64,000 nt of DNA from Haloarcula rubripromontorii. GTDB taxonomy: Archaea; Halobacteriota; Halobacteria; Halobacteriales; Haloarculaceae. Positions 6,241-12,128 of this stretch are shown piece after piece. Both the position numbers and the translations under genes were made by a program. The notes under the pieces were generated by a model that worked only from the letters and a program-made list of their open reading frames with translations, was not told the DNA's origin and ran no database searches. The DNA lies in contig NZ_LIUF01000001.1 in the NCBI RefSeq assembly GCF_001280425.1, positions 600,945 through 664,944 of the forward strand, in the 5' to 3' direction. The stretch's first letter is position 1; every line of letters starts with the position of its first letter.

Positions 6241-6522
6241 TCAATTCGAGGGACGGCTTCGGGCTATCGCCGTCACCGAGACGAGTTTCCCCTGCCAGTA
6301 CACCGCTTCCACAAGTACCTCGTCAGCACCGTCCGTCTCGTTGCTGATAGCCCTATCAGCGCACTCGTCACACCAGACTCGTCGGAGCGTCCATCCGCCA
6401 CGCTCGTAGTAGGTCCCGTAGGCGACCGCCTTGTCGCCGGTCCTGATTCCCCTGTTGCACCGGTCGCAGATGTGGCCCACCTGTACGCCGTTCAGAGCCG
6501 CCGCCGGGGACGGTCGAGTCAT
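6241..6522 (-). CDS. Small zinc-finger protein downstream of SWIM gene
   Basis: This 93-residue protein has CDRC near residue 19 and CDEC near residue 51, with GDKAVAYGTYYERGGW between, a two-knuckle zinc-binding module seen in many uncharacterised haloarchaeal accessory proteins. Its ATG overlaps the TGA of the upstream SWIM gene (ATGA at 6519-6522), so the two are translationally coupled and probably act together or are at least co-expressed. Nucleic-acid or protein binding is plausible from the fold; nothing more specific can be said. Confidence 0.72.
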   Translation of the reverse strand: MTRPSPAAALNGVQVGHICDRCNRGIRTGDKAVAYGTYYERGGWTLRRVWCDECADRAISNETDGADEVLVEAVYWQGKLVSVTAIARSRPSN

Positions 6523-6986
6523 TCGCCCTCACCCGGCAGGTCACGGCGACCAACGTTGTAGCAGTCGAAGCACGGGAAGTCGTGGTCGTCGCACCAGCAC
6601 CCGTCTTCGTCGTCGTCCCCGGTGGTGAACGAGGCCAAAGTCACGCCGCCGTCGGTCGCGGCAACCTTCGGCGTCCCTTCGACGTGCTGACCGAGTTGGG
6701 CGTCTACCTCGTCGGCGTCAATCCATGCGGGGATAGCCCACTGACCGGTGGCGAACCGAACGCGCCGTTCATGCTTACAGAGTTCGCCGTCCTTGAGGTT
6801 GTACTGCTTGTCCGGACACGTACAGCGCCCTTCGAGGGCGTCCACACGGTACTCTGACCCGCTCTGCGTCGTCACCGAGTACATGTCGCCCCCGACCGGA
6901 AGGGTCGTCATGTACTCTGTCAAGGCGCGTACATCGCGCTGTTCGAGGTCGGTACTCTCATGCCTCTCGGCAGACGTAGTTTGCAT
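6519..6986 (-). CDS. SWIM zinc-finger domain protein
   Basis: The 155-residue protein contains a SWIM signature, CTCPDKQYNLKDGELCKH at about residues 55-72 (CxC-xn-CxH), within YRVDALEGRCTCPD. SWIM domains bind DNA or protein partners and occur in mobile-element and recombination proteins. A second cysteine-rich cluster (CWCDDHDFPCFDCYNVG) lies near the C-terminus, after an acidic linker. The start is followed upstream by a leader with alternative hairpins (6988-7037). It is the first gene of a two-gene operon with the 93-residue zinc-finger protein. Confidence 0.82.
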   Translation of the reverse strand: MQTTSAERHESTDLEQRDVRALTEYMTTLPVGGDMYSVTTQSGSEYRVDALEGRCTCPDKQYNLKDGELCKHERRVRFATGQWAIPAWIDADEVDAQLGQHVEGTPKVAATDGGVTLASFTTGDDDEDGCWCDDHDFPCFDCYNVGRRDLPGEGE

Positions 6987-6987
6987 T

Positions 6988-7037
6988 GGCTTTCACTCCC
7001 GAAAGCCACTGTCCGGCGTCCCAAGCGCCGGGCTTTC
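6988..7037 (-). promoter_or_regulatory. SWIM-gene leader with two competing hairpins
   Basis: In the transcribed (minus) sense the leader reads GAAAGCC (7037-7031), GGCTTTC (7007-7001), GGGAGT, GAAAGCC (6994-6988), then A and the ATG at 6986. The central GGCTTTC can pair with either flanking GAAAGCC, never both. The upstream hairpin also has a CGGCG/CGCCG inner stem; the downstream one has a 6-base loop that is exactly the Shine-Dalgarno-like GGGAGT. This is the geometry of a translational switch. Pairing is seen directly; switching is inferred. Confidence 0.5.
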
Positions 7038-7075
7038 TCGTAGTGAGATTGCCCCGAAGAGACAGTGACTCCGTA

Positions 7076-7127
7076 CTATAGAGTAGGTGCCGTGGGATTA
7101 TAATTGTAGGGAATTATAACTCTATAG
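7076..7127. promoter_or_regulatory. AT-rich inverted repeat, probable operator/promoter
   Basis: CTATAGAG (7076-7083) and CTCTATAG (7120-7127) are perfect inverted repeats. Between them lie ATTATAAT (7097-7104) and GAATTATAAC (7111-7120), both TATA-like. The block sits about 40 bases before the leader hairpins of the minus-strand SWIM gene, so it can hold its TATA box and an operator. The adjacent winged-helix repressor gene is a natural candidate to bind it; that link is inference. Confidence 0.45.
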
Positions 7128-7332: not shown

Positions 7333-7602
7333 TCAGTTGTCGTCGTCGGGTTCGAGTTCAGCCGCGTCGAGTTGGCCGTCGAGATACTGTTTGCCTTCGT
7401 CAGTAAGGACGTACACTCCGTTGCCGAGAAAACGAACAAGTCCATGTGATTCTAACTTTTTGACACGTTGATGGATGTGAGAACGACCGAAGCGAACGTC
7501 TTCGTTTCTTGATATGGTAGTAGGGGTACCGGATTCGTTATCGCGTAGAAACTCAAGTATCCGCTCGTCCGCGATAGTCATCCAATCTGCGGATTTTCGC
7601 AT
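7333..7602 (-). CDS. PhiH1-repressor-like winged-helix transcriptional regulator
   Basis: An 89-residue protein: ADERILEFLRDNESGTPTTI, a recognition segment (FGRSHIHQRVKKLESHGLV, about residues 38-56) and a wing ending VYVLTDEGKQYLDG. This is the compact winged helix-turn-helix of the halophage PhiH1 repressor family, common in haloarchaeal proviruses and integrated elements. It lies back to back with a lipoprotein gene across about 110 bases that contain an inverted repeat, so autoregulation is likely. An acidic tail ends the protein. It probably keeps accessory genes of this element silent. Confidence 0.82.
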   Translation of the reverse strand: MRKSADWMTIADERILEFLRDNESGTPTTISRNEDVRFGRSHIHQRVKKLESHGLVRFLGNGVYVLTDEGKQYLDGQLDAAELEPDDDN

Positions 7603-7646: not shown

Positions 7647-7713
7647 CACTACAAACAACTTAGCGTTGACTACAGTAACAATTATGTGCGCCCCATGTCA
7701 CGTTAGTATCGAA

Positions 7714-8196
7714 ATGCAACGACGCAAGTACCTCGCAACTATCGGAGCAACTGTTGGTGGCCTCGCCCTCGCGGGATGTACGGAAGACAGCGGTGACTCC
7801 GGTGGCGGAGACGCGAACGACAACAGCGGAGACAGCAGTAACGGCAACTCGGACAACAGTGGCGGCGACGGCAACGGTGGCGATAGTAACAGCGGAAACA
7901 GCGGAAACAGTAGTGGCAACGACCAGCCCGACGTGGAAATCCTGAACCACGAGTTCTACAGCGAGGAGTTCTCTTCGGGCGTTCGTGGCACCGCTGTCAA
8001 CAATACCGACAGTGAAATCGGCTACGTCGAGGCGACCGCGACGTTCCTCGACTCGGAAGGTACGCAGATAGGCGAAGGACTCGATAACGTGAGCGACCTT
8101 GCTGGTGGGCGTGAGTGGGAGTTCGACTGTATGTTCACCGGGCAGGAAGAGAGCCGTATTGAAGAGTACGAAGTCGAAGTGACGACCGGGTTCTGA
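7714..8196 (+). CDS. Secreted lipoprotein with FxLYD-like domain
   Basis: The start at 7714 gives MQRRKYLATIGATVGGLALAGC, a Tat-type signal with paired arginines near the N-terminus and the lipobox LAGC, so the mature protein is anchored by lipid on Cys22 outside the cell. A long low-complexity linker of Gly, Asn, Ser and Asp (residues about 25-75) leads to a domain (VEILNHEFYSEEFSSGVRGT, then VEATATFLDSEGTQIGEG) resembling the FxLYD beta-sandwich fold. An upstream in-frame ATG (7666) would bury the signal peptide, so it was rejected. It is divergent from the repressor gene. Function unknown. Confidence 0.82.
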   Translation: MQRRKYLATIGATVGGLALAGCTEDSGDSGGGDANDNSGDSSNGNSDNSGGDGNGGDSNSGNSGNSSGNDQPDVEILNHEFYSEEFSSGVRGTAVNNTDSEIGYVEATATFLDSEGTQIGEGLDNVSDLAGGREWEFDCMFTGQEESRIEEYEVEVTTGF

Positions 8197-10683: not shown

Positions 10684-11874
10684 CTACCAGATTTGCTCTA
10701 CGGCACTGTTCCGCGTTTCTGCGTCCGAGTGTAGGTACTTCATAGTCGTGTTCAGACTCTTGTGCCGTAGTTGCTCCTTCGCGTGGTGCGGGCCAACGTG
10801 GTTCGCCCAATACGTTGCCACCCCGTGCCGGATAGAGTACCACGAGATTTCCTTATGCTCGGGAATCGGAACATCACCGCTCTCGATTACCCGGTGAAGG
10901 AGCGCGTTGCACGACTTGGAACTGTACGGCGACGACTTCTGCGTTAGCCACAACTCGTCTCTGCCGTCGTACTTGTCCATCGACGCCCGTTCATCGAGCC
11001 AGCGTTTCAGGGCCTTCGCCGTTCGACCCTTGATAGCACAGTTCCAATGCGCTTCGTTCTTCGTAGCCTCGTCCTTGGGGATGTTCAGTTCGTTGTCTTC
11101 GAGGTTTACCCACGACACCTTCGCCCGCCCAACCTCGATAGGGCGTAGTCCGGTGTCGAGCGTGACTGCTATCATGGACGGGTACTTCCACGAGTTCGCT
11201 TCTTTGAACTCCGCCGGGCCGACCTTCTCCTTCGGGATTCCAAGCCGCTGTGCGACGAAGGACTTCAGTTGGCTACGCTCGTCGGGCGAGACGGAGTGGT
11301 AACTCTTTACCGACGAGTGGTCGAGCGCCGCTTGGTACAACGGCTCGAACGCACTCCGCCGAAGGTAGTCCCGTTCGTCACCGTTCGCCTGCGAGAGTTC
11401 CACGTCGAGTTCCCACTCGTAGTCCGTTCCCCGGACGTGGTTACTGAAGCGGAAGTACCGCTTAATGTCCTTGGCATGGTGCAGGACGGTCGAGTCAATC
11501 ATCCCGTCCGACTGGTCGAGGACGCGAACGAACTTGTCCGCATGGTCGGGCGTGAACTGCGTGGTGTACTGGTTCTCGTACCGCCACAGCCACCGGAAGG
11601 CCGTTTCGAGTTTGTAGTGGGTGGATTCGAGCGTCGAGCGGGCAAGGCCCTCGTGCTTCTCGGGATTCTTCCCATAGGTGGCGAGCCACGACAGCAGTTC
11701 GTGTTTGAAGTCGCGGTAGTCGTCTACCATGTTCAGTCCAAACTCTTGCAAGTCGCCCTTCGAGCGCTCGCTGACCAGTGGGTACTCGAACTCGTAGTCC
11801 TCGGGCGCGGGTGGTATCTCTGCGGATACCGCGTCCCCACTACCGAGGTTGTCGAGCGGGTCAGCCCGGTTCAT
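10684..11874 (-). CDS. Tyrosine recombinase / integrase
   Basis: This 396-residue protein has an N-terminal SAM-like core-binding domain (about 40-160) and a C-terminal catalytic domain. Visible catalytic residues are R244 (TGLRPIE), R349 in WYSIRHG (the usual HxxR histidine position is Tyr346), H371 in LRHKSL and the nucleophile Y380 in TTMKYLH. The family cuts and joins att sites, commonly at tRNA 3' ends. Its start faces a tRNA-Thr gene 183 bases away whose 3' end points toward the integrase, the standard layout for an integrated element. It probably mobilised the accessory block to its left. Confidence 0.92.
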   Translation of the reverse strand: MNRADPLDNLGSGDAVSAEIPPAPEDYEFEYPLVSERSKGDLQEFGLNMVDDYRDFKHELLSWLATYGKNPEKHEGLARSTLESTHYKLETAFRWLWRYENQYTTQFTPDHADKFVRVLDQSDGMIDSTVLHHAKDIKRYFRFSNHVRGTDYEWELDVELSQANGDERDYLRRSAFEPLYQAALDHSSVKSYHSVSPDERSQLKSFVAQRLGIPKEKVGPAEFKEANSWKYPSMIAVTLDTGLRPIEVGRAKVSWVNLEDNELNIPKDEATKNEAHWNCAIKGRTAKALKRWLDERASMDKYDGRDELWLTQKSSPYSSKSCNALLHRVIESGDVPIPEHKEISWYSIRHGVATYWANHVGPHHAKEQLRHKSLNTTMKYLHSDAETRNSAVEQIW

Positions 11875-12056: not shown

Positions 12057-12128
12057 AGCCTAGGCCGGAATTTGAATCCGGGGTCTCGTCCTTACCAAGG
12101 ACGCGCTTTACCGCTAAGCTACCCAGGC
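12057..12128 (-). tRNA. tRNA-Thr (anticodon GGU)
   Basis: The minus strand folds as a 72-base cloverleaf. Acceptor arms are GCCTGGG and CCTAGGC with discriminator T; the anticodon stem CGTCC/GGACG closes the loop TTGGTAA, anticodon GGT; the T arm is CCCGG-ATTCAAAT-CCGGC-like with GATTCAAATTC. CCA is not encoded, as usual in haloarchaea. It reads threonine codons ACC and ACU. Its 3' end faces the integrase gene, making it the likely attB site of the accessory block. Confidence 0.95.

Follow-up and report, generated by a model that had tools for sequence, protein, structure and literature searches.

Stolt and Zillig are said to have described in 1993 the leader of the early lytic transcript T1 of the haloarchaeal virus PhiH1 and an antisense RNA to it, Tant. 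Pairing with Tant turns T1 into an RNase substrate, which renders the mRNA untranslatable (PMC8707807, PMC4284463), and the repressor Rep binds the T4 promoter of the same virus (PMC4284463). Here we analyze a 64,000-nucleotide (nt) stretch of Haloarcula rubripromontorii (the window; all coordinates refer to it and to its minus strand unless marked (+)), in which a gene for a SWIM-type zinc finger protein is preceded by one copy of an apparently undescribed class of folded haloarchaeal RNA leaders, found mostly before plasmid- or virus-like accessory genes. Our overall reading, to which we assign a probability of about 0.6, is that these leaders are translational toggles between two helices, P1 and P4, that are probably antisense-controlled and serve the early genes of mobile elements in haloarchaea.

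The leader of the SWIM gene

The original prediction described three complementary 7-base blocks upstream of the SWIM gene that would form two mutually exclusive hairpins, one of them holding a Shine-Dalgarno (SD)-like word in its loop. The blocks GAAAGCC (7037-7031), GGCTTTC (7007-7001) and GAAAGCC (6994-6988) are present exactly as described, as are the GGGAGT (7000-6995) that forms the loop of the block 2/block 3 hairpin and the ATG at 6986-6984. This hairpin (27 nt, -12.3 kcal/mol, z-score -4.65) was equalled in stability by 0 of 200 shuffles, and the entire 54-nt stretch first described (7037-6984) has a folding z-score of -2.8. The element itself starts at ~7073, about 36 nt further upstream, and consists of a three-way junction of P1, P2 and P3 (7073-7001), the P1 3' strand of which is reused as the 5' arm of a fourth helix, P4. 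Its parts and the adjoining open reading frame (ORF) are as follows.

7097-7103 (-): TATA box TTATAAT of the leader promoter, from which transcription is predicted to start at about 7073-7077
7061-7072 (-): P1 5' strand GGAGUCACUGUC, half of a covarying helix and the conserved competitor of the SD/AUG hairpin
7030-7055 (-): P2 arm of the junction; block 1 (7031-7037) lies in its 3' strand, with a conserved AA
7015-7029 (-): P3 hairpin GGCG-CUUGGGA-CGCC, part of the three-way junction
7001-7013 (-): P1 3' strand GACAGUGGCUUUC, its end 7001-7007 (block 2) doubling as the P4 5' arm
6988-7007 (-): P4 hairpin GGCUUUC-GGGAGU-GAAAGCC, its loop including the SD-like GGGAG, separated from the ATG by 1 nt
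6519-6986 (-): SWIM-type zinc finger ORF of 155 amino acids, the first gene behind the leader (Pfam SWIM match with E 0.0094, under the curated cut-off)

Judged from the TATA box at 7103-7097, the mRNA is predicted to start upstream of 7031 and would include all three blocks; in 101 leaders, position -30 relative to the P1 start is a T in 85%.

RNAalifold applied to the raw MAFFT alignment (A1) recovered P2 only, because P1 was out of register, and the seed was therefore cut to seven leaders in register, the window being left out. The covariance model of P1-P3 built from this seed (R1) recovers the window copy at 7001-7073(-) with 29.7 bits (E 1.6e-4); a second model (R2), built from 104 matches with the window included, gives 40 bits (E 1.1e-7). 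Across 103 distinct sequences the 24 pairs of P1-P3 are formed in 94.9% of cells (34-44% when the partners are slid), and both sides have changed at 22 of the 24 pairs, with covariation scores that were reached in 0 of 500 shuffles. All 13 pairs of P1 and all five pairs of P3, the latter paired in 99.8% of cells, show such changes. Because the alignment was fitted to the model, it is somewhat biased in the model's favour; the seed alignment, made without structure, agrees (93.9% paired, both-side changes at 14 of 24 pairs). Outside the helices, the unpaired j12 (CCUC) and an A before the P2 3' strand (98%) are conserved, and the P3 loop is patterned.

P4 was scored when the minimum-energy fold contained a hairpin with the P1 3' tail that had four or more pairs and ended 0-3 nt ahead of the ATG. 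Such a hairpin is present in 107 of 117 leaders, compared with 53 when the spacers were shuffled and 76 when they were swapped, and since the P4 3' arm was never in the model, this evidence is independent of it. In 106 of the 117 leaders the arm reaches to within 0-1 nt of the AUG. Only 62 of the 117 P4 loops contain a GGA, GAGG, GGTG or GGG word, so what the family conserves is occlusion of the start codon and not of the SD sequence. The closed loop around GGGAGT proposed earlier therefore holds for the window and fails as a target of the whole family, and SD sequestration as a family-wide principle was rejected on the same count.

The dyads might instead be DNA sites such as operators or recombination sites, with the RNA folds as by-products, and a separate palindrome between the TATA box and P1, probably an operator, would suit this idea. 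Against it, pairs in P1-P3 read on the sense strand include 194 G-U and 31 A-C cells, which indicates selection on the sense RNA rather than on DNA, and the position before the AUG is fixed, with the P4 arm ending exactly at the AUG. We regard this explanation as highly improbable.

Two exclusive states

The leader is retained before the genes of close SWIM relatives in four named genera, and in Halorientalis the AUG-side hairpin is altered on both arms, from GGCTTTC/GAAAGCC to GGTCTTC/GAAGACC. The leaders of more distant SWIM relatives differ in sequence and follow an identical plan, P1 closing P2 and P3, then P4 ending at the AUG. Each of them uses the outer part of the P1 3' strand as the P4 5' arm, so that P1 and P4 cannot form together; at locus L021, for example, AACUCGCUGCGU/ACGCAGUGGGUU (P1) competes with GGGUU...AACCC-AUG (P4).

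The original prediction thus correctly foresaw a structured leader in which one of two exclusive states closes the start region, and the block 2/block 3 hairpin is conserved in relatives; the predicted rival state is a different one. Six of the seven pairs between blocks 1 and 2 are kept in only 7 of 104 aligned leaders, and the block 1/block 2 hairpin was rejected as the rival state on this count. Block 1 serves as the 3' strand of P2, and the conserved partner of block 2 is the P1 5' strand (7072-7061).

In the window, the computed energies are -35.5 kcal/mol for the P1 state and -36.3 kcal/mol for the P4 state, favouring P4 by 0.8; over the leaders, the difference (ddG P1-P4) averages -2.3 kcal/mol with a standard deviation of 3.5. 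Nearly iso-energetic states would also suit an RNA thermometer or salt sensor, shifting with temperature or intracellular KCl and with no partner. Both states, however, are GC-rich and only a few pairs apart, so that a sharp temperature response is not expected, and the sequence conservation of j12 and L2 would be left unexplained; we consider such a sensor very unlikely. That the leader acts as a translational toggle seems to us well supported.

Distribution and downstream genes

The original prediction held such leaders to be rare in haloarchaea. This is not so: R1 finds matches in 216 of 391 haloarchaeal genomes (55%), which represent 69 of 86 genera; a single genome can hold as many as 10 copies. 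At the threshold used (E 0.05 per genome) about 20 genomes are expected by chance, and about 150 of the R1 matches listed have E below 1e-6. When R2 was run over 295 genomes of the phylum, 24 matched, every one in the window's own order (the haloarchaea). In Rfam 15, neither the window copy nor any of ten strongly matching loci has a relevant match, and the class is not described in Rfam or in the literature searched, although the original papers of Stolt and Zillig may contain parts of the T1 and T4 folds. We are close to certain of the structure, the exclusivity and the spread of the class.

Named plasmids with a copy include Halobacterium salinarum pHSAL1, Halalkalicoccus jeotgali plasmid 6 and Natronococcus occultus plasmid 1, and several copies lie within one gene cluster in genomes G323 and G208 and on a Halococcus dombrowskii plasmid. 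Viral contigs of IMG/VR yielded no SWIM relative and no exact pattern match, and a phage collection searched by blastn yielded no match.

The window's own genome holds a second copy (G000:C2:66186-66258(-), L072:1501-1573), which scores better than the first (R2, 64.8 bits) and precedes a 71-amino-acid protein with two CxxC-like motifs. Loci L021-L024 and L026-L028, upstream of SWIM ORFs, represent a second subtype with a shorter j12 and a different P2, weak for R1 and R2, that shares the P1/P4 exclusivity and the conserved motif at the start of the ORF described below. At L008, L033, L034, L036-L038 and L040, other SWIM genes, several on small contigs, have a different leader, with a complementary-looking GCGCCCC...GGGGCGT followed by CAGAGAGGGCGTG; the L038 variant is changed on both arms.

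The genes behind the leader are diverse and encode at least 23 clusters of proteins. With the first 15 residues excluded, 110 downstream proteins fall into 23 clusters; a SWIM motif is found in 45 of 117. Among 97 compared with Pfam, 34 match SWIM, and there are few other matches. One of these 97 (set A7) is an HNH-domain protein that matches IscB as well (E 5e-15). SWIM-type proteins are the largest downstream group, and zinc fingers can bind RNA, both of which would suit autoregulation by binding of the SWIM protein to its leader. This idea found no support here: most leaders precede other proteins, genomes G294, G139, G182, G366 and G381 carry the leader with no SWIM homologue at E 1e-8, and SWIM genes on Haloarcula plasmids have a different leader. 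We give such autoregulation only a slim chance.

The gene set bears likewise on a small-molecule or ion riboswitch, in which the P1/P2/P3 junction would be an aptamer and the ligand would lock P1 and free the AUG. A closing stem shared with a translation-blocking hairpin is the architecture of translational riboswitches, and the conserved unpaired bases (j12, the A before the P2 3' strand, the patterned P3 loop) would fit a binding site. The downstream genes, however, are heterogeneous accessory genes in 23 clusters that share no pathway and indicate no metabolite, the copies are often several per genome and on plasmids, and the conserved motif within the ORF would need another explanation. 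A riboswitch thus appears unlikely.

A coding motif and the antisense strand

The ORFs behind the leaders share a nucleotide motif close to their start, which in the window is the following.

6950-6962 (+): conserved nucleotide motif in the ORF (sense CATGAGAGTACCG, +25 to +37), read as the B recognition element (BRE) and TATA box of a putative antisense promoter, start about 6987-6989

The motif lies at a fixed distance from the ATG, gap-free, across unrelated proteins. A is found at +29 in 94%, C at +36 in 96% and G at +37 in 96%, +36 being a third codon position, and A or T at +26 in 95% and at +27 in 98%; the window ORF has A29, C36 and G37. With one representative per protein cluster, the counts are 21 of 23 (A29), 23 of 23 (C36) and 21 of 23 (G37). 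No base-pairing partner with covariation was found for it in the RNA, and an antisense promoter was therefore considered. On the opposite strand the motif reads CG and then YTYWW, an AT-rich run, in agreement with the BRE (CGAAA) and TATA (TTWT) sequences of haloarchaea (PMC4983044). A promoter matrix was trained on sense promoters and applied to the ORFs in antisense; its scores peak for a start that lies 1-2 nt past the ATG (-2/-1; z 4.6), and the mean score is 1.64 for leader genes versus -4.11 for 479 control ORFs. The motif thus looks like an antisense promoter directed at the leader, with its start at the ATG.

The PhiH1 and PhiCh1 leaders were reached by tracing divergent repressor genes on plasmids. 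In PhiH1, the annotated start of Tant is the base that immediately precedes the ATG of the first gene of T1, and this gene has A29, C36 and G37 and an antisense promoter score in the top 0.2% of controls. The T1 leader can form GAGCAGG/CCUGCUC (P1) or UGCUC...GAGCA(UG) (P4), with compensating changes in PhiCh1. The T4 leader of PhiH1 has a P1/P2/P3 fold (z -6.3) with the mapped start at the P1 5' end. In the T4 leader (L159:9557-9733) and the leader of PhiCh1 ORF49 (L158), the P1 3' strand can pair with a GAAGGCA just past a GUG; in both viruses this GUG, after P1, opens an 11-codon frame, possibly a small leader peptide.

Repressor-like genes and possible mobile-element surroundings

Two genes upstream of the leader suggest a link of the window to mobile elements.

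7333-7602 (-): winged-helix gene related to PhiH1 RepR (weak Pfam winged helix-turn-helix match)
10684-11874 (-): tyrosine integrase adjoining a tRNA-Thr gene (12057-12128)

The winged-helix protein is 32% identical to RepR over 93 columns (pairwise E 6e-9), and divergent winged-helix genes are present at 20 of 47 leaders. The palindrome between the TATA box and P1 (7.55 versus 5.93 matched pairs) probably represents the operators of different winged-helix repressors. It is seen in most leaders (e.g., L053, CCTATTGGtacatgCCAATAGG), and its sequence varies between copies. In virus BJ1, a weak R2 match (L160:9562-9619, E 0.036) lies exactly between the divergent winged-helix gene ORF20 and ORF21. 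The integrase beside tRNA-Thr suggests an integrated mobile element; no att (attachment) repeat of the tRNA gene was found within the window. A lipoprotein-like gene (RRKYLA..GATxxxLALAGC...DVEILxHEFY; window 7666-8196) is also found upstream of the leader at L005, L006 and L068, loci with a different leader gene, so the neighbours are mixed and matched around the leader.

Proposed mechanism

Sequence and covariation establish P1-P3, P4, their overlap, the distribution and the coding motif, and the following mechanism may be proposed. Transcription would start at the P1 5' end. In the presumed ON state, a long P1 would close the P1/P2/P3 junction and keep the 13-21 nt ahead of the AUG unpaired. 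In the OFF state, the outer half of the P1 3' strand would pair with the bases directly before the AUG, and the resulting P4 hairpin would abut the start codon, in the window also with the SD-like GGGAG in its loop. As the two states are close in energy, a modest input could tip the toggle. This input would most likely be an antisense RNA, transcribed from the promoter-like motif in the first 13 codons, starting at the ATG and complementary to the whole leader, as Tant is to T1 in PhiH1. A nearby winged-helix repressor gene would control the sense promoter. Control of the toggle by antisense RNA is the option towards which the sequences incline us, by a small measure.

Several points weigh against the antisense-controlled toggle. 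The energies were computed for 1 M NaCl and 37 C, not for molar KCl, and one state is far more stable in some leaders. The window's own antisense score is unremarkable, 6.5% of control ORFs scoring as high, and the antisense RNA is a prediction both there and at the R1/R2 loci. The RepR-like gene of the window is co-directional with the leader gene, not divergent. Finally, the PhiH1 T1 and T4 leaders are no significant R2 matches, and kinship with them therefore rests on architecture and position.

We tentatively propose, at slightly less than even odds, that haloarchaeal viruses, plasmids and integrated elements share an early-gene switch composed of a bistable AUG-occluding leader, an antisense promoter within the ORF and a winged-helix repressor, of which PhiH1 T1/Tant would be the sole case studied. 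A covarying switch leader in 55% of the sampled haloarchaeal genomes provides many testable loci, including plasmids of the tractable host H. salinarum. If the antisense reading is true, it explains in what way the antisense control found in PhiH1 in 1993 extends to other elements, and it reveals a common control point for mobile elements.

Comparison with known systems

The T1 leader of PhiH1 resembles the class in that its 5' strand and an AUG-proximal arm compete for one middle strand and its mapped start is at the P1 5' end; it differs in its length (151 nt) and longer interior and is missed by the models. The antisense effect described for PhiH1 is RNase processing, whereas the P1/P4 toggle and its spread are absent from the literature searched. 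The leader of PhiH1 T4 and PhiCh1 ORF49 shares the P1/P2/P3 layout and the mapped start at P1 and adjoins a winged-helix repressor gene (RepR or Rep ORF48), but it is more distant from the annotated ORF and its P4-like pairing does not abut the annotated ATG. Translational riboswitches in which P1 and a sequestering hairpin share a strand likewise have two exclusive structures, one of which blocks the initiation region, whereas the present class is not known to have a ligand, and its gene set points to none. Antisense-controlled leaders of bacterial plasmids (pT181, IncB/IncI alpha type) also combine a bistable leader of an element gene with a counter-transcribed RNA. In contrast to these, the class described here is archaeal and of unrelated sequence, its hairpin abuts the AUG, and its putative antisense promoter lies within the start of the ORF.
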